Part shown: in pieces, positions 2,829 through 20,066 of the stretch
How the letters are laid out: every line of letters begins with the position of its first letter
Numbering within the stretch: the first letter of the stretch is position 1
Assembly (NCBI GenBank): GCA_937924755.1
Contig: CALEVZ010000057.1
Location: 1-64,000 of the forward strand
Source: an uncultured bacterium
Lineage (GTDB): Bacteria; Acidobacteriota; Thermoanaerobaculia; Thermoanaerobaculales; Thermoanaerobaculaceae
Length of the DNA stretch: 64,000 nt
Direction: 5' to 3'
Notes under the pieces: generated by a model
Database searches by the model: none
What the model saw: only the letters and a program-made list of their open reading frames with translations
What the model was told of the DNA's origin: nothing
Position numbers and translations under genes: made by a program

Positions 2829-3677
2829 GTGCGGTCTATACTCCCCCGCGTGGCGGCACATCAACCCACCCTGGTGCGCATCGCCGGCCGTCGCGTTCCC
2901 CTCGGCGAGGAACTGCGAGAGCTGTCCAAGCGGCGGGAGTTGCTCCTCAATCTGGTGCGCCGCGACCTCACGGTGCGCTACAAGCGGTCCGTCCTGGGAT
3001 TCTTGTGGACCTTCCTGAACCCCCTCGTGTTCATGCTCATCCTCACGGTCGTCTTCGGCACCCTGTTCGCCGGCGCCGCCGGGCGGGTTCCCGCGTATAT
3101 CCTGCCCGGCTACCTGGTGTTGCAGTTCTTCCTGCAGACCACCACCACCGCCATGACCTCCATGGCCTGGAACGGGCAGATCCTGCGGCGGGTGTACGTC
3201 CCCCCCAGTTTGTTCCCCCTGTCGGTGGTGCTTTCCGGTTTCGTCAACCTGCTGCTTTCCTACCTGCCCCTGGCGCTGGTGATGGCCATCACCGGCGCGC
3301 ATTTCTCGTGGGCGCTGCTGCTGGTGCCGCCGGCGTCGCTGCTGCTGTTCGTCTTCGTGCTCGGGTGTTCCTGGGCGCTCGCGGCGGTGGCGGTGTACTT
3401 CGACGATCTGCGCCTCATGTACCAGGCGGGCGGCTATACCTTCATGTTCTTGACGCCCATCTTCTACCCCTTGGAGATCGTCCCCGAGCGCTTCCGCTGG
3501 CTAATTTACGCCAACCCGCTCTATCACTTTTGCGAGCTGATCCGCACCCCCGTCTTTCACGGCCAACCGGCCCCGTGGCACCACGCCGCCGTCGGCGCCG
3601 CCTGGGCGGTGGCGGCACTGCTGGCGGGCTGGGTGATCATCCGCCGCTTGAGCCCGGGATTCTTCCGCCATCTCTAA
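2829..3677 (+). CDS. ABC-2 type permease for polysaccharide export (Wzm/TagG-like)
   Basis: Membrane subunit of an ABC transporter that exports lipid-linked polysaccharide. The N-terminus carries the family hallmark RRELLLNLVRRDLTVRYKRS followed by LGFLWTFLNPLVFML, then six hydrophobic segments. The 282-residue length is typical of Wzm, TagG and KpsM proteins. The start is a GTG at 2829; a second GTG at 2850 is possible. The ATPase gene follows after 4 nt, so the two form one transcription unit together with the glycosyltransferase after them. Confidence 0.88.
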   Translation: MRSILPRVAAHQPTLVRIAGRRVPLGEELRELSKRRELLLNLVRRDLTVRYKRSVLGFLWTFLNPLVFMLILTVVFGTLFAGAAGRVPAYILPGYLVLQFFLQTTTTAMTSMAWNGQILRRVYVPPSLFPLSVVLSGFVNLLLSYLPLALVMAITGAHFSWALLLVPPASLLLFVFVLGCSWALAAVAVYFDDLRLMYQAGGYTFMFLTPIFYPLEIVPERFRWLIYANPLYHFCELIRTPVFHGQPAPWHHAAVGAAWAVAALLAGWVIIRRLSPGFFRHL

Positions 3678-3681
3678 GCTC

Positions 3682-4437
3682 ATGAAAGTTCTCGATTTCT
3701 CCATGGTCTCCGTGCACTTTCCGGCCCGCCGGGAGATGCAGCGCAGCCTGAAGGAGTTTTTCATCCAGCGGGTGACGGGGCGGCGGGAGGCCGAGGTGTT
3801 CTGGGCGTTGCGGGACGTGGACATGGTGGCCGAGGCCGGGCAGACCTGGGGGGTGGTGGGGCGCAACGGCGCCGGCAAGTCCACCCTGTTGCGGCTGGCG
3901 GCGGGGATCATCTTCCCCTCCACCGGACAGCTGCGCGTCTGGGGGAGCGTGGCGCCGGTGATCGAGCTGGCCGCCGGCTTCGACCGCGAACTCACCGGGC
4001 GGGAGAACATCCTCTTCAACGCCTCCCTGCTGGGCATCCCCGCCCGCGAGGCCCGCCGCCGCATTCCCGAGATCGTCGAGTTCGCGCAGCTGGAGGACGT
4101 CCTGGACGCGCCGCTGCGCACCTACTCCTCGGGGATGATGGCGCGTCTGGCCTTTGCCGTGGCCACCAGCGTGCGCGCCGACATCGTGCTGCTCGATGAG
4201 GTGCTGGCGGTGGGGGACCAATTCTTCCGGGCGCGCTGCGCCGACCGCATCGGGGAGCTGTGCCGGGAAGGCACCACGGTGCTGTTCGTCTCCCATGACC
4301 TCGCCTCCGTGGCCCGTCTGTGCAAACAAGCGATCTGGCTCGAGCGGGGCCGGGTGGCCGCCCTCGGCGACGCAGAAAGCGTCTTGAACGCTTACCGCTC
4401 GTCGGTCCCCTCCCGAGAGTTTCCCGTCGACCCGTGA
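3682..4437 (+). CDS. ABC transporter ATP-binding protein for polysaccharide export (Wzt/TagH-like)
   Basis: ATPase partner of the preceding permease. It has a Walker A motif (GRNGAGKST, about residues 60-68), the signature YSSGMMARLAFA, a Walker B motif (IVLLDEVLAVGD) and a switch His (FVSHD). The N-terminal VHFPARREMQRSLKEFF is typical of the polysaccharide-export subfamily. At 251 residues it lacks the C-terminal carbohydrate-binding extension found on some Wzt proteins, so export is probably not coupled to recognition of a capped glycan end. Its TGA overlaps the GTG of the next gene (GTGA), implying translational coupling. Confidence 0.9.
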   Translation: MKVLDFSMVSVHFPARREMQRSLKEFFIQRVTGRREAEVFWALRDVDMVAEAGQTWGVVGRNGAGKSTLLRLAAGIIFPSTGQLRVWGSVAPVIELAAGFDRELTGRENILFNASLLGIPAREARRRIPEIVEFAQLEDVLDAPLRTYSSGMMARLAFAVATSVRADIVLLDEVLAVGDQFFRARCADRIGELCREGTTVLFVSHDLASVARLCKQAIWLERGRVAALGDAESVLNAYRSSVPSREFPVDP

Positions 4438-5714
4438 AGTGGACCGACAACCCCGTCGGCGTCTGGACGCCGTGGCCGGCGCTGCCTGTCGCCCCTCCTC
4501 GGCGTCACCGCGGGCGGCATCGGGTGGAGGCGGTTCTCCGTACCGTGCGCCACCCTCTGGGGGCTCTCCGCCGCTCCTTCAGCCGCCTTCCTCTCCCCTG
4601 GCGGCGACGGCTCTTCGAGCGTGTGCGGCCCCCCCGCGCCGCCGCCGCCCAGCCCGCTCCCGCCGAGTGGTTGGCCGAGCTGGCCGTCGCCCCGCCCGCG
4701 CGGCCGCTGCTGGTCGTCGACGACGAGCGCCTTTTTGGCGGCGTCGACCCGTGGGCCGTTCTTCCTCTGGGCGGGCTTCCGCCTGCCGGCGACTCCGCCA
4801 CGCTGCGCCCCCACGTCGGCCGGGCGGCCTCGTCGCCCAGCCCCATCGGCTGCGTGGTGAGCTTCACCCCGCATCGAGCCGCCCAGGGCAGGGAGCTGGC
4901 CCGTACCCTCTGCTGGCCCCACGCCTTCGCCGACCCTGCCGGAAGACCCTTGGGCAACGTGCTGGGGTCGGTTTTTCCACGTCTGTCGGTGGTGGTGGTG
5001 GTCTACCGCCACCCCGAACTCACCCGCCTGTGCCTCGAGGCGCTGCGGCGCTTCACCGCCTGGCCCAACCTGGAGATCCTGGTGGTGGACAACGCCTCCC
5101 CCGACGGCGCCGGCGACGTGGCGCGCCGTATCGCCGCCGCCGACACCCGCGTGCGGGTGCTCGGCAACCCCCGCAACCGGGGCTTCGCCGCCGCCGCCAA
5201 CCAGGGGGTGGAGGCCGCCGACGGGCCGTTGATCGCGCTGCTCAACCACGACGTGGCGGTGTCCCCCGGCTGGGAGGTGCCCCTCCTGCAGCACCTCCTC
5301 CGTCACCCGGAGGTGGGCCTGGCGGGACCCGCCACCAACGCCGCCGGCAACGAGGCGCGTCTGCAGGTGAAGTATCTCACATTCTCCGACTTCCTGCGTT
5401 TCACCGAGACCCGCGCGACCCTCGCTTCCCGGCCGTTGCCGCTGCCGGAGCTGGGCTTTTTCTGCGTCGTGGTCCGGCGGCGGGTGTGGGAGGAGCTGGG
5501 AGGCTTGGACGAGGGATACGGCCTGGGGTACTTCGAGGACGCCGACTTCTGCCGGAGGGCGCGGGCGCGGGGGTGGCGCCTGGCGTGCCTGGGGTCGAGT
5601 TTTGTCCACCACTGGCAGGGGGCCGCCTTTGCCACCCTGCCGCGCGGCGAGCTGGAGGACCTGTGGGAGGCCAACCGCCGCCGGTTTCTCCGCCGCCGTC
5701 AACACGCCGGCTGA
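4434..5714 (+). CDS. GT2 family glycosyltransferase (rhamnosyltransferase-like)
   Basis: A nucleotide-sugar-dependent inverting glycosyltransferase of 426 residues. An Arg/Pro-rich N-terminal region of about 175 residues precedes a GT-A domain: LSVVVVVYRHPE, ILVVDNASPDGAGD, NRGFAAAANQG, then LLNHDVAVSPGW as the metal-binding DXD-like segment and GYFEDADFCRRARARGW as the acceptor/catalytic region. The start is the GTG at 4434, which overlaps the stop of the ATPase gene as GTGA. It is the third gene of the exporter operon and so likely extends the exported glycan. Its domain is a clear relative of the C-terminal domain of the giant protein encoded tail-to-tail with it. Confidence 0.85.
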   Translation: MKWTDNPVGVWTPWPALPVAPPRRHRGRHRVEAVLRTVRHPLGALRRSFSRLPLPWRRRLFERVRPPRAAAAQPAPAEWLAELAVAPPARPLLVVDDERLFGGVDPWAVLPLGGLPPAGDSATLRPHVGRAASSPSPIGCVVSFTPHRAAQGRELARTLCWPHAFADPAGRPLGNVLGSVFPRLSVVVVVYRHPELTRLCLEALRRFTAWPNLEILVVDNASPDGAGDVARRIAAADTRVRVLGNPRNRGFAAAANQGVEAADGPLIALLNHDVAVSPGWEVPLLQHLLRHPEVGLAGPATNAAGNEARLQVKYLTFSDFLRFTETRATLASRPLPLPELGFFCVVVRRRVWEELGGLDEGYGLGYFEDADFCRRARARGWRLACLGSSFVHHWQGAAFATLPRGELEDLWEANRRRFLRRRQHAG

Positions 5715-5730
5715 CTACCGCTTGCGGTAG
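5715..5730. repeat. Perfect inverted repeat at the convergent stop codons
   Basis: CTACCGC-TT-GCGGTAG forms a 7-bp palindrome beginning at the first base after the stop of the plus-strand glycosyltransferase. It includes the stop codon of the giant minus-strand gene. No T-tract follows on either strand, so it is at best a weak bidirectional pause or terminator element. Confidence 0.4.
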
Positions 5731-8700
5731 CGGTGGGGCTGCCAGGGACGCCCCCATTTTTCCTCGAACTTCCTGCGGTTGTCCTCGAACAGCTTCCGGT
5801 ACGCCTGGTCGTCCATGCGCCTAAAGGCGGCCCGCCCCTCGTGGTGGACGAAGACATCCTCCACGCACACCACCTCCAGGCCGGCCCGGCGCACCCGCTC
5901 GGCGTAGTCGTCGTCCTCGAACATGCCCATCCCGAAGCGCTCGTCGAGGTCGCCGACTTTCTCGAACACCTGCCGCCGCATGGCCACGCAAAACATGGCC
6001 AGCACGGGGATGGGGAAATACCGGCCGTCGTGCTGGCGGCAGTGGCGCTCGGCCCAGGCGGGCAACTCCTCCAGGGTGCTGTAGCCCACCGGAATCTGCG
6101 CCTCGTTGCCGATCCAGTTGGTGACCGGCCCCACCAGGCCCCACTCGGAGTGGGCCGCCAGGTGCCGGATGAGGCCCTCGAGCCACCCCCGCACCACCAC
6201 CGTGTCGTTGTTGAGCAGCACCAGGTACTCCCCCCCCGCCCGGGCCAGCCCCTGGTTGTTGGCGGCGGCAAAGCCGCGGTTGTCGGGGTTCAGGATCACC
6301 TGGACCCGGGGGTCGGCCGTGGCCAGCTTCTCCAGGTACGCCGGTGTGCCGTCCGAGGAACCGTTGTCCACCACGATCACCTCGAAGCGGGGCCAGGCGG
6401 TGCGGGCGAGCACCGACTCCAGGCAGGCCCCGGTGAGGGGGAGGTTGTTGTAGGTGACCACCACCACCGAGGCCAGCGGGAAGCTCTCCGCCACCGCCGG
6501 GGCGAGGGTTTCCACCCGCTCTCGCCACGTCTGCCGGCGGGCGAAGTCGCGTCGCAGGCGGCTCTTCTCTTCGCTGTCGCTGGCGGCGGCCTCCTCGATG
6601 CGCGCGGCGAACTCCGCCGCCGTCTCGGCGAAGACCACCAGGTCGGGGTGCGGCAGCAGCTCCGGCAGGGGGACCGCCACCAGCGGCTTGCCGGCCGCCA
6701 TGATCTCGTAGAACTTCACCGGGTTGGTGGCCTCGGTCAAGGGGGTGCGGCGGAAGGGGATGATCAGCACGTCCATGCGCTCCAGCCAGCGGGGCAACTC
6801 GGCGTAGGGCTGCTCCCCCACAAGCCGCACGTTGGGCAACCCATCCAGGGGCGAAGTGTCGCAGGTGTAGGTGGAGCCCACCAGGAGAAACCGCCAGTCG
6901 GGGCGCAGGCGGGCCAGCTCGCCCACCAGCCGGGAATCGAACCAATCGGCGATGGCCCCGTAGTAGCCGACGGTGAGGGGTTGCCCGGCCGGCCGCAGGC
7001 TCACCTGGGCGAAATGCTCGAAGTCGCAGGCGTTGGGAACGCGGATGAGCGCCTGCGCCCGCCCCGCCACCTGCCGCTCCAGCCAGGCGGAGGAGACCAC
7101 CACCAGGTCCGCCCCGGCGATGAGGTCCTCCTCCAGGGTCAGCATGGCGGCGTCGTTGGTGGAAAAGCCCGGGTGGTAGTCCATGCAGTCGTACACCACC
7201 GGCACCCCCCAGCGGCGGCCGAGCTCCCGCGCCACCGGCCACCAGAAGGGCAGCTCCACCACCAGGGCCGGGGCGGCCAGCCCCACCTGCCGACGCAGCT
7301 CCTCCAAGCTGGCGCACAGCTCCTCCACCTCGTGGGGGCCCGGCGCGTCCCGGTAGACATTGCGGTCGGGCCCGCGCAGGGAGACCTCCCGGAGGTTGTC
7401 CCCCCTGGGCACCAGCTCCACCGCCGCGCCGCGGCGGCGGAAGCCGATGCGGCAGTAAAACACCCGGTGCCCCAGACCCGCCAGCGCCGTGGCCAACTGC
7501 TGCGGCCGCTGGAAGCGGAACTCCCAGTCGATGATGGGAAAAAAGAGGAAGTCGCCGCGCCCGTCGGGACCAGGGGGAAGCGACTCGTCGTCGGCGACCG
7601 GCTCGGCCGGCCGGGCCGGCCCGGGGGCGAGAGGTGGCGCCGCCGTTGCCTGCGCCGCCGGAGCGGGGGAAGAGGGGGAGCCTTGCCCCCGCAGCCGGGC
7701 CCGCAGGCGCCAGTAACGGCTGGCCAACCGAAACCACCGGGTGGAGGTGAGGCGGGTCAGGGTGTCGGCCAGGCGCTCCACCTCCCGCTGCCGCTCCTCG
7801 TAGCGCTCGACGAGCTCCTGGTGGCGACGCGCCCAGGCCTCGCCCTCCTCGCGAGCCTGATCCGCCGCGGCACGCTGCGTCGACGCTTCCACCTCCAGGT
7901 GGGCCGTCCGCCGTACCTCCTCCTGCCACTGGCCGGCCAGGCGCTCCACCTCCCGCTGCCGCTCCCCGTAGCGCTCCACCAGCTCCTGTTGGCGGCGCTG
8001 CAGGTCGGCCATGGACTGCTGCACCTGCCGGAGAGCGTCCTCCCTTTCGGCTCGCCGCCGCTCCTCCTCCTCCCGGCCCGCCTCGGCCTCCGCCAAGCGG
8101 CGGGCCAGCTGCTCCCCGTGCGCCCGGGGCAGGGAGCGCAGGGGCGCCGTCGCCACGACCTCCAGGAGGGCCTCGGCGCGATGCCCCCATGTGTTGGCGG
8201 CCACGAAGCGGGCGCGTGCGTCCTCGTCCAGAGACAGCCGCCCCGCCGCCAGTTGCCGAAGCACCCCTGCCATCTCCTCCGCCGAGCGGGCCACCCACAC
8301 CCCCGGAACCCCCCGGCACTCCGGCAGCTCGGTGCTCACCACCGGCACCCCCATGGCCAGGTACTCGTACATCTTGAGAGGCGAGACGGCAGCGGTGATG
8401 GCATTGACCTGAAAAGGGATCAGCGCCACGTGCACATTGGCGAAGGCGCCGTGCACCTCCCCGTAGGGACGGGCGCCCAGGTAACCCACCTGGGGGTGGT
8501 CCCCCAGCCCCGATTCGGCAAAAGAGCCGTCCAGGTCCGGGCCCATGAGCATGAGCCGGGCGTGGGGGAAGACATCCAGCAGCGCCGCCAGCAGGTCGTA
8601 GTCGAGCCAGGCGGCGAGGCTGCCGAAATAACCCAGGCGCAGCTCACCGTCGTCACCCGTCGGGAGTGACGGCCGCCGGACGTCGCCCAGGGTCCGCCGA

Positions 8701-10400
8701 ATCCCCGCCGGGTCGGCGGCGTTGGGCAGGTAGAGGGCGTCGGGGCGCACCGCCGCCACCTCTTCCAGCAGCGGGCGCGACACCGCCGTCACCACCGTCG
8801 CTTCGTCCAGCAGGCGCCGGTGCTCGCCGCCCAGGGCCGCGGCGCCGCCGGGGAACACATCCAGGTGGTCGATGACGTCGTAGACCAGACGAAAGCTGCC
8901 AAGGGTGTCGGCGAAGGCGCGGTTGTAGGGCAGGGCCACCACCACCGGATCGGCGAGGGCCGCCCACACCTCGCCGGGCACGTTGGCCACGTACAGGCGC
9001 CTCGCCACGCGGTGAAAACCGGGGCCGAAGCGCCGGCTCGAGGCGGGCTCCCAGAAAAACACCAGGCACCCCGCTTTCGCCAGCGCCAGGGCGAGCTGGT
9101 TGGGCCGCTGAAAGACCTCCGTCTGCCAGTACACCGAGGGCAGAAACAGCACCACCTCCCGCGCGGCGCGGTGGCTGTCCAGGATCCCCTCCAGGCGGCG
9201 CTGCAGCGCGCGTCGACTCAGCTCCATGGTTGCCCTCCCCCCCTCCAGCGGCAGCTGCCTCGTTCGGGCCTTCCCCCGGGGCTCGGCGAGCAATCGCCGG
9301 GCCACCGCGGCGGGCCTGCGGCTGGCCTCCTCCCACCGCTTGGTCGCCACCCCGGGGTGGGAACACTCCAGTCGCTCCACCATGGCGAGGGCCAGGTCCA
9401 TCGCAGTCCAGGCCGCCGGCTCCCTGGCACCGTCGGGATCTGCCAGCTCCTCGAACAGCGCCAACACCTTGGCGTCGTAGGCCACGCCCACCGGCCGCCG
9501 GCCTCCCCGGGCCGCCGCCAGGCAGGCGTGCAGGCGCATCCCCACCGTCAGGTCCGCTGCGGCGCATAGCCAGAAGCGAGAGGCGGTGCTCCAGCCCGCC
9601 GGCACTATCCAGCAGGAAACCTCACCGGCAAGAGCCGCAGCCAGCTCCGCCGCGGCCGCTTGGTCGTCGTCCCGTCCTGCGCCGCGGTGAAATGGCACCA
9701 ACCCCACCCCCAGGGGACGCCGCCCCGCCAGTGCCCGTAGCGCCCCCACCACGGCCTCGGCGGCGGGGACCTGTCCCTCCGGCCAGCGCCGGGGCGCCAA
9801 TGCCACCAGGGTCGCGGAGGGAGGCAGCCCCATCTGGGCCAGCACGGCGGCCCGGTCCACCTCAAGACGGGGGGCGGCCCAGGCAGGATCCGGTACCAAT
9901 TCCACCGTCCCTTTGAAACCGAGCTCCTCTAGCAACAGGGCGGAGGCCCGGTCGCGCACGCTCACCCACGAGGCAGCCGCCAGGGCCTCTCCTACCAGCT
10001 CACGTCCCGCCGGGCTTGCCAGCGGCCCGACCCCCACTCCCCACACCAGGGACGGCACCCCCGCCCCCGCCGCCAGCAGCAGGGGCCAGGAGTAGAAGGT
10101 GATCCCATGGTGGGCCGGGGTGCCCAGGGTGGCCCGGTCCACCCCCCAGTAATCCTGAAAGAGGCCGCCGCCGCCCACCACCACCAGATCCGCTGAACGC
10201 ACCGCCTCACGGATCCCCCTCACGTCCTGCCAGGGCACCGCCGCCGCCGGCACGGCAAGCGGCAGGCCGCCGCTGGTGACGGTCAGCTCCACCTCGCCGA
10301 TCGCCACCTGCAAAGCCGCGTGAATCCCTTGCAGGATGACCTCGTCGCCGGTGTTACCGAAGCCGTAGTAGCCGCAGATGAAAACGTTCGCTTTCGCCAT
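5715..10400 (-). CDS. Giant fusion: polysaccharide pyruvyl transferase, two GT-B glycosyltransferases, coiled coil, GT2
   Basis: One uninterrupted 1561-residue frame. Residues 1-375 form a polysaccharide pyruvyl transferase (CsaB-like) with CGYYGFGNTGDE, DLVVVGGGGLFQD and DLTVGMRLHACLAA. Residues 391-750 form a GT-B domain (WQTEVFQRPNQLA; LGYFGSLAAWLDYDLL; SPLKMYEYLAMGVPVV). Residues 755-885 are a Glu/Arg-rich coiled coil with an internal duplication, ending in TSTRWFRLASRYWRLRARL. Residues 905-945 are an Ala/Pro linker. Residues 948-1305 are a second GT-B domain (WEFRFQRPQQLA; VGYYGAIADWFDSRLV; NPVKFYEIMAAGKPLV). Residues 1309-1561 are a GT2 domain (SVVVVTYNN; VDNGSSDGTP; LLNNDTVVVRGW; FEDDDYAERVRRAG). 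There is no signal peptide, so it should act in the cytoplasm. It probably assembles and pyruvylates a surface polysaccharide. A Met at residue 392 could act as an internal start. Confidence 0.85.
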   Translation of the reverse strand: MAKANVFICGYYGFGNTGDEVILQGIHAALQVAIGEVELTVTSGGLPLAVPAAAVPWQDVRGIREAVRSADLVVVGGGGLFQDYWGVDRATLGTPAHHGITFYSWPLLLAAGAGVPSLVWGVGVGPLASPAGRELVGEALAAASWVSVRDRASALLLEELGFKGTVELVPDPAWAAPRLEVDRAAVLAQMGLPPSATLVALAPRRWPEGQVPAAEAVVGALRALAGRRPLGVGLVPFHRGAGRDDDQAAAAELAAALAGEVSCWIVPAGWSTASRFWLCAAADLTVGMRLHACLAAARGGRRPVGVAYDAKVLALFEELADPDGAREPAAWTAMDLALAMVERLECSHPGVATKRWEEASRRPAAVARRLLAEPRGKARTRQLPLEGGRATMELSRRALQRRLEGILDSHRAAREVVLFLPSVYWQTEVFQRPNQLALALAKAGCLVFFWEPASSRRFGPGFHRVARRLYVANVPGEVWAALADPVVVALPYNRAFADTLGSFRLVYDVIDHLDVFPGGAAALGGEHRRLLDEATVVTAVSRPLLEEVAAVRPDALYLPNAADPAGIRRTLGDVRRPSLPTGDDGELRLGYFGSLAAWLDYDLLAALLDVFPHARLMLMGPDLDGSFAESGLGDHPQVGYLGARPYGEVHGAFANVHVALIPFQVNAITAAVSPLKMYEYLAMGVPVVSTELPECRGVPGVWVARSAEEMAGVLRQLAAGRLSLDEDARARFVAANTWGHRAEALLEVVATAPLRSLPRAHGEQLARRLAEAEAGREEEERRRAEREDALRQVQQSMADLQRRQQELVERYGERQREVERLAGQWQEEVRRTAHLEVEASTQRAAADQAREEGEAWARRHQELVERYEERQREVERLADTLTRLTSTRWFRLASRYWRLRARLRGQGSPSSPAPAAQATAAPPLAPGPARPAEPVADDESLPPGPDGRGDFLFFPIIDWEFRFQRPQQLATALAGLGHRVFYCRIGFRRRGAAVELVPRGDNLREVSLRGPDRNVYRDAPGPHEVEELCASLEELRRQVGLAAPALVVELPFWWPVARELGRRWGVPVVYDCMDYHPGFSTNDAAMLTLEEDLIAGADLVVVSSAWLERQVAGRAQALIRVPNACDFEHFAQVSLRPAGQPLTVGYYGAIADWFDSRLVGELARLRPDWRFLLVGSTYTCDTSPLDGLPNVRLVGEQPYAELPRWLERMDVLIIPFRRTPLTEATNPVKFYEIMAAGKPLVAVPLPELLPHPDLVVFAETAAEFAARIEEAAASDSEEKSRLRRDFARRQTWRERVETLAPAVAESFPLASVVVVTYNNLPLTGACLESVLARTAWPRFEVIVVDNGSSDGTPAYLEKLATADPRVQVILNPDNRGFAAANNQGLARAGGEYLVLLNNDTVVVRGWLEGLIRHLAAHSEWGLVGPVTNWIGNEAQIPVGYSTLEELPAWAERHCRQHDGRYFPIPVLAMFCVAMRRQVFEKVGDLDERFGMGMFEDDDYAERVRRAGLEVVCVEDVFVHHEGRAAFRRMDDQAYRKLFEDNRRKFEEKWGRPWQPHRYRKR

Positions 10401-10507: not shown

Positions 10508-13500
10508 ATGATCTCGCGCATCGGCTGGTTCGTCGTGGTTGCAGCACTGCTGTGCCCATCGGCCTGGGCCTCGGCCCGGCAATCCTCGCAGGCGTTCATT
10601 GACCCCTGGGTGGTGGAAAAAACCCACGGAGGGAGCGAAGCCGAGTTCCTTATCGTCCTTCACGCCCAGGCGGACACCGCCCCGGCCCGACAGCTCCAGG
10701 GCAAGGAAGCCAGGGGGGCGTGGGTGATGACCACCCTCCAGGGGGTGGCCGAGGCCACCCAGCCCCCGGTGCTCAAGCTCCTCCAGGAGATGGGGATCCC
10801 CCATCGCTCCTACTGGATCGTCAACATGATCTGGGCCCGCGGCAGCTGGGAGGCGGTCCGGCGCATCGCCGAGCTGCCCGAGGTGGCCAAGATCCTGGCC
10901 AACCCTTCGGTGCCGCTGCAGCGTCCCACCCTCGAAGAGGAGGCTTCTGCCGCCCCCGAGGCCATCGAGTGGGGGATCACCAAGACCGGCGCCCCCACCG
11001 TGTGGGGCATGGGCTACCGCGGCCAGAATATCGTCGTGGCGGGCCAGGACACCGGCTACAAGTGGGATCACCCGGCTCTCAAGAACAAGTACCGAGGGTG
11101 GAACGGCTCCACCGCCGACCACAACTACCACTGGCACGACGCCATCCACTCCGGCGGCGGCGTTTGCGGCGCCAACTCACAGGTGCCCTGCGACGACGAT
11201 TCCCACGGTACCCACACCATGGGCACCATGGTGGGGGATGACGGCGCCGGCAACCAGATCGGCATGGCTCCCCAGGCCAAGTGGATCGGCTGCCGCAACA
11301 TGGACCGGGGCAACGGCACCCCGGCCACGTACGCCGAGTGCTTCCAGTGGTTCATCGCCCCCACCAACCTGGCGGGTGGCAATCCGGACCCCACCAAGGC
11401 CCCCCACGTCATCAACAACTCCTGGGGTTGCCCGCCCAGTGAGGGGTGCACGGATGTGCAGGTGCTCAAGACCGTGGTCGAGAACACCCGCAACGCCGGC
11501 ATCGTAGTGGTGGTCTCGGCAGGCAACGCCGGCTCGTCGTGCGGCTCGGTCAACGACCCGCCAGCCATCTACGACGCCTCCTACTCGGTGGGCGCCACCA
11601 GTTCCACCGACACCATCGCCAGCTTTTCCTCGCGCGGCCCGGTGACGGTGGACGGCTCCAACCGGATGAAGCCGGACATTTCGGCCCCCGGCGTCGGCAT
11701 CCGCTCCAGCGTGCCGAGCGGCGGCTACAGTTCCATGAGCGGCACCAGCATGGCCGGCCCCCACGTCGCCGGCGCGGTGGCCCTGCTGCTGTCGGCGGTG
11801 CCCGGGTGGATCGGCCAGGTCGACGCGGTGGAGGAGCGGTTGAACCTCACCGCCAGCCACGACGTCACGCCCACCGGACAGGTGTGCGGCGGCACCCCCG
11901 ACAACCAGTTCCCCAACAACACCTACGGCCACGGTCGACTGGACATCTACAAGGCCATCAACGAGGCCAACCTCGGCCTCGCTCTGTCGGACACCCCCGA
12001 TCCGGTCGGCATCGGGCAGAACCTCGTCTACACCGCCACCGTCAACAACGGCGGTCCCCGCCCGGCCACCGCCGCCACCCTCACCGTCACCCTGCCCGCC
12101 AGCGTCACCTACGTCAGCGCCACCGGCTGGTGCTCCCTGGCCGGCGTGACCCTGACCTGCTCCTTGGGGAGCCTGCCCAACGGCTTCTCCACCAGCGTCC
12201 AGGTCACCGTCGTTCCCACCGTCGTCGGGCAGATCACCGCCTCGGCCACCGTCACCTCCTCCATGCCCGACTACACCCCGGCCAACAACACCGCCCAGGT
12301 CACCACCCAGGTGGTTGCCGGGGCGCCTGACCTGGCCGCGGGGCTGGCCGCCGCCCCGGATCCGGCCCTGGTGGGAGGACAGCTGATCTATACCATCTCC
12401 GCCGGCAACGTGGGGAGCGGTACGGCCGTGGGTGCGTCGGCGTCCCTGACCCTGCCGGGGGCGGTGAACTTCTCCTCGGCCTCCGCCGGGTGCACTTACA
12501 ACGCCGGGACTGTCACGTGCGGGTTGGGAGACGTCGCTCCCGCTGGCAGCGCCCAACGCACCGTCACGGTCATCCCCACCGTGGTGGGCACCCTCTCTGC
12601 CACCCTCACGGTCACGGTGAGCGGAGACGTCAACCCCGCCAACAACTCGGCCCAGGTCACCACCGCGGTCGTGGAGATGGAACCGGTGGCGCTGGCGCTG
12701 GACGAGGCGCCGCTCGGCAACGGCAACGGCGTCCTGGAGCCCGGCGAGACGGTCATCGTCCGCCCCACCTGGCGCAACCCCTCCGGCGGCGGCGTCACCC
12801 AATCCGCAAGCGCTGTGTCGTTCTTCGGACCTCCCGGCGCCACCTACAACCTCGACGACGCCTCCGCCAGCTACGGCACCATCGCCCCCGGCGGAGAGAG
12901 CAGCTGCACCGACTGCTACCAAATCACCGTGCCGGTGCCGCCCAGTCGGCCGACCCTCCACTGGGACGCCACCTTCAGCGAGCTGCTCACCACCGGCGCC
13001 GCCAAGGCCTGGACCATCCACATCGGCGGTAGCTTCAGCGATGTTCCTCCGGAGCGGTGGGGGTACCGCTTCATCGAGACGATCCTCCACCACCGGGTGA
13101 CCTCGGGGTGCGGCGGCGGCAACTACTGCCCAACCTTGACGGTTTCGCGCTGGCAGATGGCGGTGTTCCTGGCGCGACTGCTGCACCCGGGTGCGCCGTT
13201 GCCCCCCGCCGGCACCGTGCCCGGCCTCGGACCCTACAACTGCGTGGACGGGGGCACCTCGGTGTTCACCGACGTCCCCCCCGCCGACCCCGGCTGTCGT
13301 GCGGTGCACTACACCGTCGCCCAGGGGGTCACCGACACCTGCGGGGCGAACGTCTTCTGCCCAGAAACCCTGGTCTCCCGCCGGAAGATGGCCGAGTTTT
13401 TGGCCCGCGCCCTGGTGGGGGAGCCCGTACCCACGACGGGGACGGTGCCGGGGATGGGCGCGTACCAGTGTGGCGTGGGCGGCGTTTCGGTGTTTGCCGA

Positions 13501-13666
13501 CGTGCCCGCGACCGACGGCGCCTGTCCCCACATTCACTACATCGCCAGCCAGCGCATCACTTCCGGGTGCGGCGGGGGTAACTACTGTCCTGACTTCGAT
13601 ATCCCCCGCGACCAGATGTCAATCTTTTTGACCCGAGCTTTCGGGTTGAAGCTGTACGGACCGTGA
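10508..13666 (+). CDS. Secreted subtilisin-like serine protease (S8) with DUF11-like and SLH-like repeats
   Basis: An exported protease of 1052 residues. A signal peptide (residues 1-23, ending WASA) and a prosegment precede an S8 domain with catalytic D181 (GQDTG), H233 (DSHGTH) and S414 (GTSMAGPH) and oxyanion N303 (VINNSWG). Paired cysteines suggest extracellular disulfides. Two DUF11/CARDB-like beta-sandwich repeats follow (about 485-600 and 603-720; each ends with PANNxAQVTT). Then come a beta-rich linker domain and three SLH-like repeats (about 870-1052), the first and third carrying SGCGGGNYCP and the second a degenerate TCGANVFCP. The triple repeat probably anchors the protein at the cell surface. 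The start is supported by GGGGAGG 11 nt upstream. Confidence 0.92.
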   Translation: MISRIGWFVVVAALLCPSAWASARQSSQAFIDPWVVEKTHGGSEAEFLIVLHAQADTAPARQLQGKEARGAWVMTTLQGVAEATQPPVLKLLQEMGIPHRSYWIVNMIWARGSWEAVRRIAELPEVAKILANPSVPLQRPTLEEEASAAPEAIEWGITKTGAPTVWGMGYRGQNIVVAGQDTGYKWDHPALKNKYRGWNGSTADHNYHWHDAIHSGGGVCGANSQVPCDDDSHGTHTMGTMVGDDGAGNQIGMAPQAKWIGCRNMDRGNGTPATYAECFQWFIAPTNLAGGNPDPTKAPHVINNSWGCPPSEGCTDVQVLKTVVENTRNAGIVVVVSAGNAGSSCGSVNDPPAIYDASYSVGATSSTDTIASFSSRGPVTVDGSNRMKPDISAPGVGIRSSVPSGGYSSMSGTSMAGPHVAGAVALLLSAVPGWIGQVDAVEERLNLTASHDVTPTGQVCGGTPDNQFPNNTYGHGRLDIYKAINEANLGLALSDTPDPVGIGQNLVYTATVNNGGPRPATAATLTVTLPASVTYVSATGWCSLAGVTLTCSLGSLPNGFSTSVQVTVVPTVVGQITASATVTSSMPDYTPANNTAQVTTQVVAGAPDLAAGLAAAPDPALVGGQLIYTISAGNVGSGTAVGASASLTLPGAVNFSSASAGCTYNAGTVTCGLGDVAPAGSAQRTVTVIPTVVGTLSATLTVTVSGDVNPANNSAQVTTAVVEMEPVALALDEAPLGNGNGVLEPGETVIVRPTWRNPSGGGVTQSASAVSFFGPPGATYNLDDASASYGTIAPGGESSCTDCYQITVPVPPSRPTLHWDATFSELLTTGAAKAWTIHIGGSFSDVPPERWGYRFIETILHHRVTSGCGGGNYCPTLTVSRWQMAVFLARLLHPGAPLPPAGTVPGLGPYNCVDGGTSVFTDVPPADPGCRAVHYTVAQGVTDTCGANVFCPETLVSRRKMAEFLARALVGEPVPTTGTVPGMGAYQCGVGGVSVFADVPATDGACPHIHYIASQRITSGCGGGNYCPDFDIPRDQMSIFLTRAFGLKLYGP

Positions 13667-13676
13667 GTCCGCCGAC

Positions 13677-14699
13677 CTAGGCGGGAGGCGCCCCGCCCTC
13701 GCTCGGTCGAAGCCGGGCGAAGGCGGGGCGCAGTTCTATCACCTGCGCCAGCACCCGGCGCGCCCTGGCAATCCAGGTGTGTTCCCGCTCCACCCGTCGG
13801 CGGGCAGCCAGACCGATCTGCCGAAGACGCTCCGGGTCTTTGAGCAGCCTCTGGATCACCCGAGCCAGCCCGGCCGGGGTGCCGTCGAAGGTGACGACCT
13901 CCTCCCCGGGGGTCAGCAGGCCGTCCAGAGGGCAGCGCTCCTCCACCAACGGTGGCACCCCGCAGGCCGCCGCCATGAGGGCCCGCGGCGTGATGCGGTG
14001 GGCGTCCCAGGCGGGGTCCGGGTGCAGCTCCACCCGGGTGGGGTCCAGCACCAGGCGAGCCCGGTTGATTTCCTCGGCGAGGGTGCGCTCGTCGTCCACC
14101 TGGGGCCCCACCGGTACCCGCCAGCGCACCTCCCCCCGGTAAGCCAGCACGCGCACCGTGGCGAACTCGGCCACGGCCGAGAGCAGGGCGTCCCGGTAGG
14201 GGGTCCACTTGCCCACGTAGAGGACATCCCAGCTTTTCCGGGCCGCCACCGGTGGGGCGAACACCTCGGGGTCCGCGGCTAGGGGCAAATACAGGGCCTC
14301 CACACCGTGCTCCCTGTACCCCGCCAGGGAGCCGCAGTCCTGGGTGAAGAAGAGGTCGAAGGCGGGGGCAACCTGAAGGGAGGTCGGTAGAGCCTGGGGG
14401 TCGGAGAGCGCTATTCCCACCAACAAGGGCTTTCCCGGCAGCCGCGAACGACTCTCCGGCGGAATCACCAGCCCCCCACCAAGGCATACCACCACGTGGG
14501 GTGCAAAGGACGCCATCGCCGCCACTGCGGACGGCGGCACCCGCGCCGGAGCCGCCCCCCCCGTGGGGGTGAAGGAGGGATCGTCGGTGGGGACGAAGAC
14601 GCGCGCGTCGGCCACGCTGGAAAAAGCCCGCACCAGGGGGTTGAGATTGTTCCCGTACGGGGGGGTGCGGACGTTCGCCACCAGCGCCACTCGGAGCAT
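13677..14699 (-). CDS. Glycosyltransferase, CgeB-like / group 1
   Basis: A GT-B fold protein of 340 residues. The N-terminal LRVALVANVRTPPYGNNLNP and HVVVCLGGG form the acceptor half. WDVLYVGKWTPYRDALL, the C-terminal ITPRALMAAACGVPPLVEE and a GEEVVTFDG segment match the CgeB-type group-1 family, where the conserved Glu contacts the nucleotide-sugar. No signal peptide, so it is cytoplasmic. It sits between the two secreted SLH-like proteins and converges with the subtilase gene (10 bp between stop codons). Modification of surface proteins or an anchoring polymer is a reasonable guess only. Confidence 0.75.
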   Translation of the reverse strand: MLRVALVANVRTPPYGNNLNPLVRAFSSVADARVFVPTDDPSFTPTGGAAPARVPPSAVAAMASFAPHVVVCLGGGLVIPPESRSRLPGKPLLVGIALSDPQALPTSLQVAPAFDLFFTQDCGSLAGYREHGVEALYLPLAADPEVFAPPVAARKSWDVLYVGKWTPYRDALLSAVAEFATVRVLAYRGEVRWRVPVGPQVDDERTLAEEINRARLVLDPTRVELHPDPAWDAHRITPRALMAAACGVPPLVEERCPLDGLLTPGEEVVTFDGTPAGLARVIQRLLKDPERLRQIGLAARRRVEREHTWIARARRVLAQVIELRPAFARLRPSEGGAPPA

Positions 14700-14792: not shown

Positions 14793-17700
14793 TTACGGAC
14801 AGCGCGGTAAGTTCCACGTGCGGGTCACGAACACGGACTGCTGTGCCCGCGTGGTGGTCATCTCCGGACAGTAGTTGCCACCGCCGCAGCCGGTGGTGAT
14901 CCCGCGCCGCGCCAGCTCCTCGATCCACGCATCCGAGTACTTGGCGCAGGTCACGTCGCCGAACATCGTGCCCGTGCAGGCCGGCGGCGTGTAGCCGGGT
15001 GGTTCCTTCGCCTTCAGCAGGAAGATGGCCATCTGCCGACGGGTGACGATCTGGTCGGGGCAGAACCGCAATGGGTTCGTACCGCAGCCGGCGGTGATGC
15101 CCTCGTTGTACAGGGCCTCGATCCAGTCGGCGTTGGGGGTGGTGTCGCAGTCCACGTCGGCGAAGATGCCCTGGCACGGCGGCGGAGCGTAGGTGTTGCC
15201 GAAACGCCCGAGGAGCAGCCAACGCGCCATGTTGGAGCGGGTCATTGGCCCCTCGGGGTTGAAGGTGCCCGCGGCGCCGTGGGTGATCTTCGCCCCCGCG
15301 ACGGCGTGCACGAACTTGTCCGCCCAGTAGCCTGGCGGTACGTCGTCGAACGCCTTGATGAAGCAGACGTTGACGTCGGGCACCGGGGTGGCCGAGTCGT
15401 GCATGGTCATGATCTTGGCCCGGTAGGTCCCCCACCGGTTGGCTCCGTCGGCGATGAAGTGCGCGTCGACAGACAGAACGGAAATGGGGTTCACCACGCC
15501 TTGATCCGGAGTCAGGACAAGCCACGGCAGACCGCCGCCGATGTAGAAGGCGACCCCGAAAGCGCCGACCTCGGCGCCGCCGGGGAAGGGCCCGACGAGG
15601 GTGCTGGCACCGGTCGTCGTGTCGATGACCCGCAGCTCGCCCTGCGAGGTCGTGTTGTTGTAGGCCGCCCAGAGGAGCTGCCCGGCCATCTCGTCGTAGT
15701 CCATGCCCTGGGCGTAGTTGGCGTCGATCCCGAGCGGGCCGACAACCGTGCCGGCGCCGGTGGCGGTATTGATCTTGATCAGCGAGTCGCTGACCAGGTC
15801 AACACCGTACAGATCCCCACCCGGGGTGATGGCGATGTCGATGATGCAGGCGCCGTTGGTGATCGGCCCGATCACCGTGGTCGCCCCGCTGGCCGGGTTG
15901 ACAGTGTAGAGGGTGGAAGAGGTGCCGCACTGGGTGCTCGACGCGTACAGCGTGCCGTCGACGGCCGCGGTCAGACCGGTCCAGCTCTGCCCGCTGACCG
16001 GCGGTGCCGGTCCCACCACGGTCACTGCGCCGCTCGCCGTATTGATGGTGGCGAGTTCGTTGGTCGAGTAGTTGAGGACCCACAGCTTGGAGAAGTCCCC
16101 TTGGCGGAAGTCGCCGGCGAAGAAGTACTCGGGCCGCGGCGACACCACGCTCCACGTGCCGGGGGCCGAGATGTTGGGCCAGTGCACGAAGTTGGAACCG
16201 GGGTAGACGTCCACGCCGTAGGCGGGAACGTTGGAAACCTCCGGCACGCTGCGCGGTGCCGCTGGCACGTTCCTGGGCACGCGCGGCGCCGGTCCGGCGG
16301 AAGGTGCATCACCGCCGCTCGGCCGGTTGCCCTGCACCACCGGCGACAGGTGCGGCCAGCTCGGGGTTAGCGCCGTGGTGATCAGCTGGTAATTGACCGC
16401 CAGGCCGCCCTGGTTCGAGAGGTTGAGGTCCTGGTGATCCTCCTCGGTCCGATAGAGGCGGGCGTACAGGGAGGTCGGGCTGACGGTGAGCCATCCGGTG
16501 GGTAGCGAGAAGTTGATCTGGTAGACGGTGTTGGGCGTCGGCGTCGCCATCTTGACGTCGTTGCCGTAGCCCGTGTGCGACGCCGTGAAGGTGCGCGTCG
16601 CCGGACCGTAGCCGCCCGGCACCGGCGTGAACAGAACGTAGAAGCCGTCCGCCAGGTTGGGATCGGCGGGGGTGGCGATGGTGCGGGTCTCCCCACCCAG
16701 ATCGTGCTCCACCTTGGCGCCGACGATCGGCGCGGCGGTGTTGCCGTCGGTAACGAAGCCTTCCACCAACGTGCCGGGCACGGGGTTGCAGGCAAAGCCC
16801 GTGGGATCGAGCGGCAGCGCCGGCGTCCCCGGCAAGCCGGTCAGGAACTCCACGTCGTCGATGTGGATATCGTTACCGTAGGCGCTAATGGCGTTGAGGC
16901 CGATGTACACGTTGCCGGTGGCGCCAGTCAACTCGACCTGGTGGTACTTCCACCCCACCGAGCCGTCGTAGCGGTTGATGGTCGCGCCGGCGTTGGTCCA
17001 GGTGGTGCCGTCGGGCGAGTACTGCACCTGGATGCGGTCGGCGCTGCCGGAAAAGCCGGTGTCATGGTACATCCACAGGCCCACGAAGCCGGCGCCGCCA
17101 GGCGGAATCGCGTCGGTCGAGGTCTTGTACAGGCGCATGGCGTTGCCCGTACCGACCGACCAAGAGTTGAAGTACGCCAAATTTGGCGGCGAATGCGGCG
17201 GCTGGCCCGCAGGGTGCACGGTGGCCGTGGCCGTCTTCCAGTCGGTGTTGACGTTGGTGCCACCCGTCTGCACCTTCGCCCACCCGGCGGGCAGTGCGGG
17301 CGGCGTGGGCGCATTGAAGTTCTCGACCCACTGCACGGCCGGCGGCGGCGGCGGTACGGCCGGGATGATGGTCCGCACCTCGTCGATCATCCACCACCAG
17401 TTCCACCCCGGCGAGACGAAGCGGAAGCGGATGCGGGCGTTGGCCTGGTTGGCCCACTGCGCGGTGAGATCCGCCTCGTAGGTTTTGGGCCCGCGATCGC
17501 TGACGCTGAAGGTCTTGATCGTCGTCCAGGTGGCGCCGCCGTCATTGGAAATATCCACGTACCCGCGCTGGCTGCCCAGATGGTAGTAGTCGTACTTGAA
17601 CTGGATGCCCACGTTGGGTACGCCGGTCAGGTCGATAATCGGCGAGGTGAGCGTCGTGCCCATGGTCGAACCCGAACCGCAGAGGTCTGAGTCGGCGATG

Positions 17701-20066
17701 GCGAACTTGCCGGTGCCGCCGGTCAGGTTGCTGCGGCCCGACACGTTGGTCCACAGGCAGTTGGGTTTGCCGGAGTCGTGGGTGACCGTCCAGCCGGCTG
17801 GCGGCCAGGCACCCTCGAAGCCCTCGTTGATGCCGCCCGAAAGCTTGCAGATCACCCACTCCGCCGCGCCGTCGTCGACCAGCGCGAAGTTCTCGGTCTG
17901 ACCCATGGCCGACAGGGTGATGCTCCGCATTCCCTGGTTGTAGCCCGGGATCTGCGAGGTCACCACCATGTCGTAGTTGTCGGGCGCCGGCAGGCCGGCG
18001 AAGAAGTAATAGCCGTTGAAGGGGTTGGTGAAGGTGGAGGCGACGACCGTGGGGCCCACCTTGATGTCCACCTTGGCGTACAGCGGCCACCCGTGCGCCT
18101 GACCCACCACGAAGCCGTCCAGCTCGGCGCTGGCGGCGGGCGTCAGGGCGAAGTCCTGAGTGGTCGTGTTGCCGTCGGTGATGACGATGCCGTTGACGGT
18201 CTCGGGGCTGTACCCGAATGCCGAGGCGGTGACGTCGTAAGTGCCCGAAGGCAGGTTCATGGCGTAGCTGCCGTTGGGCTGGGTGATCGCCACGTAGGCG
18301 CCCGCCTGCACCTGCGCGCCGCCGATCGGCGCCAGGCTCGAGGCGTTGACCACGGTGCCGTTGAGCGTGCCGAAGCCGGTCGGGGTGCACCCCGGCATGG
18401 CGAACGCCACCACCCAGGTGTCCCAGTCGAAGCTGCCGGTGTTGGCCACGTACTCGGCGGTGCCCCACAGCGTGCAGCCGTCGGGGTCGGTGTGAATGCT
18501 GGCGTAGTCACCCCAGCGGTTGCCGCCGGTCTGGTAGCCGCCGCCCGCCACCGCGATGCCTTCGGTCTGCATCGTGCCCGGGGGATCGGAGGCCAGCCGG
18601 CCGGTGTAGCCCACCGACGGGTACATGGTGCTCGAGGAGATCGAGTAGACCAAGCCGATGTTGCCGTTCTGGTCCACCGCCGCCGAACCCATCCAGCGGT
18701 GGTGGGCATCCGGCGCGAAAGTACCGCCGTCGTGCACGTACCAACCGCTGCCGGTGTTGCGCAGCTCGTACCAGCGCACCCCGGCGTGGTCGCCGCCCAC
18801 GTCCACCGAGTGGGTCACCACCATCACCTCGTACCCCAACGTGCTCATGAGGTTGCGGTAGTTGAGCGGGAACATGAGGCGGTCGGACAGGGCATCGAGC
18901 TTCTGGGTCGTGCCCTGCTGCGGGATGCAGTTGCGGCTGTACCCGCACAGGTTGGAATCAAAGGACAACCCCGCCGCCGTCAAATTGATGATGCCAGGAT
19001 CGGAAAAGCCCGCCGGGCAGGTGAAGGCCGAGTTGGCGGGCGTCGCCCAGTCCACCGTGAAAGTGCAGATCTGCAGCAGGTCGAAGGGGTTGCCCCAGGC
19101 GTCGTCGTAGAAGGCGACGTTGTAGTTGGGGCTGCCGGGAGGGGGCGGCGCCCCGCCGTCCCAGTGGGTGGGCTGGGGGAACGCCGGCTGCGCCACGGCG
19201 ATCGGGAAGTACTGCGCCCCCACAGTCGGCGAGCCCGCCAGCATGGCGATGCGGTCGAACACCACCGTGGCCGGATTCGCCCCGGGGAACTCATTGACCG
19301 TCATGTAGTAGCCGTCCGGCCACACGCCGAACTTGGGGTAGTCGTTCATGATCGTTGGGCTGTAGAGGTACTCCCACACGTACCAGGATCCCAACGGGTC
19401 GCCGGTTTGCGACACCGCCAGGCACGTGTAGTTGGAGCTCGGCAGCGCAAACTGGCTCATCAGCCAGCGGTCGGCACCGTGGTCGTACAGCACGACGGGG
19501 TCGCCGTCGTTGCTCGTACGGCAGGCCGAGCCCGGCGGCAGCGCCTGCCACAGCGAGTTGCCCGGCCACGGGCCGCCCAGCAGGGTGCCGCTCTTGTCGT
19601 ACACGGCCCACACCAGGTTGATCCACTGGATGTAGTGGTTCGGACCCACCGCCCCTTCGGTGTCCGGGGGCATGACGCGGAAGCCCAGGACTGCCTGGTT
19701 GGTGTCGCTGTTCAGGCTGTTGAACGACACCAAAGGCGCTGGCGCCAAAGTCCCCGTGGAACCAGCCACCCGCCCCTCCCCCTGCGGCCCGCCCGCCGGC
19801 GCCTTGGCGTCGGGGAAGGTGAGCGCCGGCAAGCGCGCCGGATCCACCGGTCGGTTGGGGATTTCCCGCGGCGGACCGGACGGCCCCGGCTGCGCCACCG
19901 GCAGGTCGCGCAGTGGCGGCGTCACCGCGAACGCCGACGGCTGCAGGATCTTCGACGGCCGCACCACCGAGGGCCGCTTGCCGACCTCACCGGCCCCCAC
20001 CGGCAGGGCCAGAGCGGCGGCCAGCAACACCACGGTTGCGACCACACACCATCGCATGATTCTCAT
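14793..20066 (-). CDS. Giant secreted multidomain protein with SLH-like C-terminus
   Basis: An exported protein of 1757 residues and unknown activity. The ATG at 20066 gives a clean signal peptide (MRIMRWCVVATVVLLAAALALPVGAG), and GAGAGGAGGAG lies just upstream; the frame stays open further upstream but without signal-like sequence. A large N-terminal region (about 85-570) resembles a sialidase/exo-alpha-type beta-propeller. It is followed by two carboxypeptidase-regulatory-like modules (about 575-740), an immune-inhibitor-like jelly roll (NEGFEGAWPPAGW), a second jelly-roll module (WVENFNAPTPPALPAGW) and another regulatory-like module. A YVTN/quinoprotein-like propeller follows (ATINTASGAVTVVG, LYTVNPASGATTVIG, IKINTATGAGTVVG), then three SLH-like repeats (about 1590-1757, ITTGCGGGNYCPE). 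No catalytic residues are evident, so adhesion or surface display is the best guess. Confidence 0.85.
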   Translation of the reverse strand: MRIMRWCVVATVVLLAAALALPVGAGEVGKRPSVVRPSKILQPSAFAVTPPLRDLPVAQPGPSGPPREIPNRPVDPARLPALTFPDAKAPAGGPQGEGRVAGSTGTLAPAPLVSFNSLNSDTNQAVLGFRVMPPDTEGAVGPNHYIQWINLVWAVYDKSGTLLGGPWPGNSLWQALPPGSACRTSNDGDPVVLYDHGADRWLMSQFALPSSNYTCLAVSQTGDPLGSWYVWEYLYSPTIMNDYPKFGVWPDGYYMTVNEFPGANPATVVFDRIAMLAGSPTVGAQYFPIAVAQPAFPQPTHWDGGAPPPPGSPNYNVAFYDDAWGNPFDLLQICTFTVDWATPANSAFTCPAGFSDPGIINLTAAGLSFDSNLCGYSRNCIPQQGTTQKLDALSDRLMFPLNYRNLMSTLGYEVMVVTHSVDVGGDHAGVRWYELRNTGSGWYVHDGGTFAPDAHHRWMGSAAVDQNGNIGLVYSISSSTMYPSVGYTGRLASDPPGTMQTEGIAVAGGGYQTGGNRWGDYASIHTDPDGCTLWGTAEYVANTGSFDWDTWVVAFAMPGCTPTGFGTLNGTVVNASSLAPIGGAQVQAGAYVAITQPNGSYAMNLPSGTYDVTASAFGYSPETVNGIVITDGNTTTQDFALTPAASAELDGFVVGQAHGWPLYAKVDIKVGPTVVASTFTNPFNGYYFFAGLPAPDNYDMVVTSQIPGYNQGMRSITLSAMGQTENFALVDDGAAEWVICKLSGGINEGFEGAWPPAGWTVTHDSGKPNCLWTNVSGRSNLTGGTGKFAIADSDLCGSGSTMGTTLTSPIIDLTGVPNVGIQFKYDYYHLGSQRGYVDISNDGGATWTTIKTFSVSDRGPKTYEADLTAQWANQANARIRFRFVSPGWNWWWMIDEVRTIIPAVPPPPPAVQWVENFNAPTPPALPAGWAKVQTGGTNVNTDWKTATATVHPAGQPPHSPPNLAYFNSWSVGTGNAMRLYKTSTDAIPPGGAGFVGLWMYHDTGFSGSADRIQVQYSPDGTTWTNAGATINRYDGSVGWKYHQVELTGATGNVYIGLNAISAYGNDIHIDDVEFLTGLPGTPALPLDPTGFACNPVPGTLVEGFVTDGNTAAPIVGAKVEHDLGGETRTIATPADPNLADGFYVLFTPVPGGYGPATRTFTASHTGYGNDVKMATPTPNTVYQINFSLPTGWLTVSPTSLYARLYRTEEDHQDLNLSNQGGLAVNYQLITTALTPSWPHLSPVVQGNRPSGGDAPSAGPAPRVPRNVPAAPRSVPEVSNVPAYGVDVYPGSNFVHWPNISAPGTWSVVSPRPEYFFAGDFRQGDFSKLWVLNYSTNELATINTASGAVTVVGPAPPVSGQSWTGLTAAVDGTLYASSTQCGTSSTLYTVNPASGATTVIGPITNGACIIDIAITPGGDLYGVDLVSDSLIKINTATGAGTVVGPLGIDANYAQGMDYDEMAGQLLWAAYNNTTSQGELRVIDTTTGASTLVGPFPGGAEVGAFGVAFYIGGGLPWLVLTPDQGVVNPISVLSVDAHFIADGANRWGTYRAKIMTMHDSATPVPDVNVCFIKAFDDVPPGYWADKFVHAVAGAKITHGAAGTFNPEGPMTRSNMARWLLLGRFGNTYAPPPCQGIFADVDCDTTPNADWIEALYNEGITAGCGTNPLRFCPDQIVTRRQMAIFLLKAKEPPGYTPPACTGTMFGDVTCAKYSDAWIEELARRGITTGCGGGNYCPEMTTTRAQQSVFVTRTWNLPRCP

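Follow-up and report, generated by a model that had tools for sequence, protein, structure and literature searches.

A CsaB-like pyruvyltransferase fused to a coiled coil and glycosyltransferases, a candidate glycan assembler for SLH-protein anchoring in an LpxC-encoding bacterium

One gene in the 64,000-nucleotide stretch of DNA analyzed here (hereafter, the window) joins a polysaccharide pyruvyltransferase (PPT) to glycosyltransferases (GTs) and a coiled coil, and it lies beside genes for secreted proteins that end in SLH repeats. What would such a protein make, and do the SLH proteins bind the product? A sequence-only reading of this DNA had described a 1561-residue open frame of five modules, intact and not in decay. 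Translation of the minus strand from 5715 to 10400 gave an ATG start, zero internal stops and 1561 residues, and profile searches recognized the four enzyme modules, confirming the frame (Table 1). The enzyme is intact as well, and it contains the catalytic motifs known from CsaB and WbbZ.

The N-terminal module scored best, among the NCBIfam PPT models, against CsaB (TIGR03609; 161.7 bits, or 166 in the genome search), which is below the curated equivalog cutoff of 213.1 bits for that model, a value exceeded in only 2 genomes of the class. Its motifs, GYYGFGNTGD, VSVRDRAS, GMRLH, and AYDAK, correspond by motif-based assignment, rather than direct alignment, to Y14, F16, R148, H308, and K328, the catalytic residues of P. 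alvei CsaB (PMC10435577). The predicted structure of the module is a GT-B fold (pLDDT 86), and its neighbors in the PDB are GT-B enzymes and UDP-GlcNAc 2-epimerases, as reported for WbbZ. The module is a pyruvyltransferase of the CsaB kind, and from the family and the conserved residues we infer that the module performs pyruvyl transfer. It belongs to the sole PF04230 protein in the genome.

The group-1/GT4 glycosyltransferase family of Pfam matched the fusion in two stretches (1.4e-20), corresponding to two GT-B modules with 31% mutual identity. Their nearest named family is TuaH of teichuronic acid biosynthesis, whose NCBIfam model likewise matched in two stretches (3.6e-38); the score of 131 bits is so far under the cutoff of 550 that the GT-B substrate cannot be inferred from it. 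One of the two modules lies on the modifying-enzyme side of the protein, that is, between the PPT and the coiled coil. Within the coil, two near-identical 21-residue stretches (7767-7829 and 7935-7997, minus strand) are offset by exactly 56 residues, or 8 heptads, which suggests that the coil grew by in-register duplication. Segments similar to STRWFRLASRYWRLRARLRG, the putative membrane anchor at the end of the coil, also occur in relatives.

Table 1. Positions of the fusion gene, its modules, and neighboring genes in the window
Feature	Position	Strand	Basis
Wzm-like ABC-2 permease	2850..3677	plus	PF01061 8.5e-16
Wzt-like ATPase, 251 aa, without C-terminal glycan-binding extension	3682..4437	plus	galactan-export Wzt model 9.3e-60, under cutoff
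Stand-alone GT2 enzyme	4524..5714	plus	Pfam; 45% identity to the GT2 module of the fusion
Fusion gene, 1561 aa, PPT - GT-B - coiled coil - GT-B - GT2	5715..10400	minus	ORF, Pfam, NCBIfam
CsaB-like polysaccharide pyruvyltransferase module, aa 1-330	9411..10400	minus	PF04230 (PS_pyruv_trans, aa 16-309) 1.8e-24; TIGR03609 2.4e-47; GT-B-fold model; motifs
GT-B module 1, TuaH-like, ~aa 405-747	8160..9188	minus	Pfam, NCBIfam
Coiled coil, ~aa 763-904, containing the 21-residue near-repeat	7689..8114	minus	
Basic-aromatic amphipathic segment STRWFRLASRYWRLRARLRG at coiled-coil end, putative membrane anchor	7686..7745	minus	
GT-B module 2, TuaH-like, ~aa 956-1299	6504..7535	minus	Pfam, NCBIfam
GT2 (GT-A) module, ~aa 1307-1561	5718..6482	minus	Pfam (Glycos_transf_2, aa 1311-1482) 1e-32
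Secreted subtilase, DUF11 and three C-terminal Cys-type SLH repeats, divergent from fusion gene	10508..13666	plus	
GT4-type glycosyltransferase	13677..14699	minus	PF13524 6.9e-21
Large secreted protein, 1750 residues, three C-terminal SLH repeats	14793..20045	minus	

The two SLH-like proteins said to be encoded nearby do exist, the subtilase 107 bp and the large protein 4.4 kb from the fusion, with three repeats each and Pfam SLH matches in both. Full-length relatives of the large protein are encoded on the PPT-cluster contigs of two other genomes, G006 (53%) and G020 (52%), and a profile search counted 13 SLH repeats in the genome as a whole. The description of the locus as a self-contained system was too strong, since export is encoded by other genes and the annotated parts of the window yielded no sugar-nucleotide genes.

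A profile of the Cys-type SLH repeat was built from 13 repeats, some of them taken from the vicinity of PPT genes (alignment A1). Its invariant G25 and R39 are 14 positions apart, the spacing of Gly29 and Arg43, through which SLH domains bind pyruvylated sugar (PMC6081394). Two invariant Cys residues are located between the GxxxG loop and the TRxx motif (A1; window 13001-13663) and probably form a disulfide, which would suit an oxidizing compartment. A phmmer search with the window SLH sequence returned a weak match to Bacillus anthracis Sap. The AlphaFold model of the SLH triplet, computed from a two-row alignment, reached a pLDDT of 39 and was not used as evidence.

The reading that we consider probable combines a glycan assembler, a ruler, and a pyruvyl terminator with Wzm/Wzt export and with SLH proteins held by the pyruvylated glycan. 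In this reading, the fusion protein would be a cytoplasmic, membrane-associated assembler whose GT-B and GT2 modules, judging from their families, elongate a lipid-linked glycan. Its architecture suggests that the coiled coil with its amphipathic end acts as a scaffold, probably as a length ruler, and that the CsaB-like module puts a pyruvate ketal most likely on the non-reducing end of the chain. The adjoining Wzm/Wzt pair would export the chain, and the secreted Cys-type SLH triplets would bind the pyruvylated sugar and so hold their proteins on the cell surface, as co-occurrence and gene neighborhood suggest.

The position of the pyruvate is the first point on which another reading competes. 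For ABC-exported O antigens such as those of Klebsiella O12 and O7, a single polypeptide unites terminator, coiled-coil ruler, and polymerase GTs; in known systems the coil has the terminator at one end and the GTs for polymerization at the opposite end, together with an ABC exporter, and the Wzt ATPase of terminated systems carries a cap-reading module, which is a CBM in O-antigen exporters (PMC11231755). WbbZ provides a precedent for pyruvate as the terminal modification of an ABC-exported glycan (PMC10629545). By analogy, a layout of terminator-like enzyme, coil, polymerase-like GTs, and adjoining ABC exporter fits a terminal cap better than a pyruvate on each repeat. Alternatively, the PPT could place pyruvate on each repeat unit, or on a lipid-linked precursor of the repeat, with the coil as scaffold only and SLH still binding the product. 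We hold this to be unlikely, even though CsaB is the best match of the PPT module, the substrate of P. alvei CsaB is a lipid-linked precursor disaccharide (PMC10435577), and the GT-B between PPT and coil departs from the simplest ruler layout: many relatives combine the PPT-coiled coil-GT layout with a nearby Wzm/Wzt (in seven loci we found the pair close to the PPT gene), and the exporter ATPase of one genome reads best as a protein that recognizes chain ends.

This ATPase, from G054 (L043 7549-9138), is a Wzt-like ABC protein with C-terminal SLH repeats (Pfam SLH 6.5e-9), and its gene immediately precedes a PPT-coiled coil-GT gene. The repeats would place SLH on a protein of the cytoplasm, in the position that exporters use for cap reading. 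A phmmer search of the tail against the PDB gave zero matches, so the SLH assignment rests on Pfam and the local profile, and the class survey gave no clear second case of an SLH-tailed Wzt beyond G054. The Wzt of the window itself ends shortly past the ATPase domain and lacks a C-terminal cap-reading module; capping may therefore not gate export in this host, as in Klebsiella O1 (PMC10629545).

The second point concerns the envelope layer in which a pyruvate-capped glycan would be found. The Gram-positive wall-polymer setting invoked by the sequence-only reading was not supported, and we rejected it: the genome encodes LpxC, the Wzm/Wzt genes adjoin the fusion, and a search for the LCP ligase gave zero PF03816 matches in this genome (96.9% complete, so that the absence is not absolute). 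LCP was found in all positive controls (Thermus, Deinobacterium, Thermotoga, Synechococcus, and B. subtilis). The genome also encodes several Wzy_C/WaaL-type proteins. The presence of LpxC and the failure to find LCP point to an LPS-type diderm without the usual polymer-to-peptidoglycan ligase, and lipid A together with the missing LCP makes the glycan more likely an outer-membrane or LPS-type polymer than a peptidoglycan-bound wall polymer. A peptidoglycan-linked polymer made by the usual route is unlikely; it is simpler to assume a glycan of the outer membrane, of LPS type or other, and the SLH proteins would then sit outside that membrane. In the competing view, the glycan is a secondary wall polymer linked to peptidoglycan, and SLH proteins in the periplasm tether the layers of the envelope, as they do in Thermus and Deinococcus; SLH tethering to pyruvylated wall polymers does occur in other diderm phyla (PMC9388160, PMC10628300). 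Here we find it quite improbable, given the LpxC gene, an LCP that was not found though every control has one, and the adjoining ABC-type exporter. In addition, neither SLH protein of the window combines N-terminal SLH with an outer-membrane barrel: one is a subtilase, the other a large secreted protein, and their SLH repeats are C-terminal.

The third point is whether PPT and SLH proteins belong together at all. The co-occurrence of PPT fusions with Cys-type SLH proteins, on which the sequence-only reading had staked its case, held at the level of both genomes and gene neighbors. SLH matches were present in 18/18 genomes of the class with a clear CsaB-type PPT versus 11/131 others (149 genomes; Fisher 5e-16), counts in which related genomes are not independent and for which the profile drew in part on repeats from the vicinity of PPT genes. 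Two families each show the pattern on their own, with SLH in 6/6 CsaB-type genomes versus 0/11 others in f1 and in 4/4 versus 2/16 in f2. Among the 11 exceptions, G135 and G080 carry a fragmentary or frameshifted CsaB-type PPT, and nine genomes have at least weak SLH matches without a CsaB-type PPT, two of which carry another PPT subfamily. A sample of the phylum (396 genomes, overlapping the class set) gave SLH in 12/13 genomes with a fused PPT, in 1/5 with an unfused CsaB-type PPT, and in 10/378 with neither. At the level of loci, an SLH gene lies within ~6 kb of the fused PPT in 13/17 assessable cases, compared to ~0.85 expected from approximate SLH gene numbers per genome. The genomic data, from co-occurrence and gene neighborhood, thus support the link between PPT and SLH well.

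It is nevertheless conceivable that the fusion makes an ordinary pyruvylated exopolysaccharide or O antigen and that the association with SLH is incidental, both being marks of genomes rich in surface proteins. Some genomes do have SLH without a CsaB-type PPT, one genome with a fused PPT (G172) has no detected SLH, and SLH partners are lacking for many pyruvylated glycans (PMC10629545). We regard an incidental association as very improbable in view of the enrichment among gene neighbors, which includes the one SLH gene that the G006 genome has (~2.5 kb away from its PPT gene, and encoding the relative of the window's large SLH protein noted above), and in view of the SLH repeats on the exporter ATPase of G054. 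The PPT tree argues in the same direction, as it is discordant with the genome families: G007 (f1) pairs with G144 (f5), and G005 (f1) pairs with G137 (f10). A tree that does not follow the genome families suggests that the PPT has spread by horizontal transfer, which would mean repeated joint gain with SLH.

Two of the SLH-containing genomes without a CsaB-type PPT, G024 and G036 (L053 and L052), have a PPT of another subfamily adjoining a GT2 gene, and this enzyme could do the pyruvylating in place of a CsaB-type PPT.

Across the class, CsaB-like PPTs are found in fusion with glycosyltransferases, most commonly in the order PPT, coiled coil, and then at least one GT module (more than 12 genomes). 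The statement that these modules are normally separate genes is therefore right only in part: it fails for this PPT subfamily, in which fusions are the rule. A search of domain orders among relatives showed that the fusion is no one-off, and G023 has the order PPT-GTB-coil-GT2-GT2. An explanation of the long frame as an artefact of assembly (the draft genome has 86 contigs) or as a fusion in decay is scarcely credible and was rejected, since the frame is free of stops, its C-terminal 1161 residues (GTB1-coil-GTB2-GT2) can be aligned over their whole length with a G005 protein (49%, 1211 columns), and G048 shares the full five-module order PPT-GTB-coil-GTB-GT2. The G005 protein has a GT4 module at its N terminus in place of the PPT, indicating that the N-terminal module is exchangeable. 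Its gene (GT-GTB1-coil-GTB2-GT2) is flanked by two PPT-containing frames in one cluster (L049 6408-17485).

In the PPT-domain tree, fused PPTs cluster (2 changes versus a shuffled mean of 13), and the sole exception inside the fused group is a G005 PPT that ends in a short coiled stretch. Genus g81 carries, beside its main PPT fusion, a fusion of a weak PPT-like domain with GT4 (L098 5671-7551, L099 7638-9653, L101 111-2006); this second domain is possibly a degenerate PPT. A gene run of Wzm, Wzt, PPT-coiled coil-GT2-GTB, and a further GT was observed in an Anaerolineales MAG of the Chloroflexota (L037), so the architecture probably crosses phyla.

Compared to the CsaB/SLH anchoring of Bacillus, Paenibacillus, and Thermus, the locus has in common a CsaB-family PPT, SLH triplets that keep the pyruvate-binding Gly and Arg, and the pairing of PPT and SLH at the genome level. 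It differs in the fusion of the PPT to a coiled coil and glycosyltransferases, in SLH repeats that have a conserved Cys pair and are C-terminal on secreted proteins, and in a host that has LpxC and an adjoining ABC exporter but no LCP ligase. With WbbB (Klebsiella O12), ORF6 (O7), and WbdD (O9a) it shares an N-terminal modifying enzyme, a central coil with an amphipathic segment, C-terminal GTs, and adjoining Wzm/Wzt (PMC11231755). Unlike in those proteins, the terminator would be a pyruvyltransferase, an extra GT-B precedes the coil, and the Wzt has no CBM, the place of which is taken by SLH repeats in G054. WbbZ (Klebsiella O1) is also a pyruvyltransferase that acts with a Wzm/Wzt-exported glycan and has the NxGD, RxxxS, and H motifs (PMC10629545), but it is not part of a fusion and falls in a different PPT clade, and neither a coiled coil nor an SLH partner has been described for it.

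Pyruvate-SLH anchoring is already known in Gram-positives and in a few diderm phyla with peptidoglycan-bound polymers. If the terminal-cap reading with outer-membrane display is true, such anchoring would extend to an LPS-making bacterium without the usual peptidoglycan-polymer ligase, and pyruvate would join the list of chain caps set by coiled-coil rulers. The model also gives the Cys-type SLH exoproteins a testable role and predicts that an ABC exporter of glycans can use SLH to read the cap. A broader proposal is possible, although we lean against it as a whole: in LPS-bearing members of the phylum, secreted proteins would be retained through SLH at the end of an outer-membrane polysaccharide that bears a pyruvate cap, the fused PPT-coil-polymerase would add this cap, and some exporter ATPases would check the same cap with their own cytoplasmic SLH before export, so that one domain family would read the mark on both sides of the envelope.

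Elsewhere in the window, at 24109-25650, this bacterial genome carries a gene for HMG-CoA reductase, an enzyme of the mevalonate pathway.
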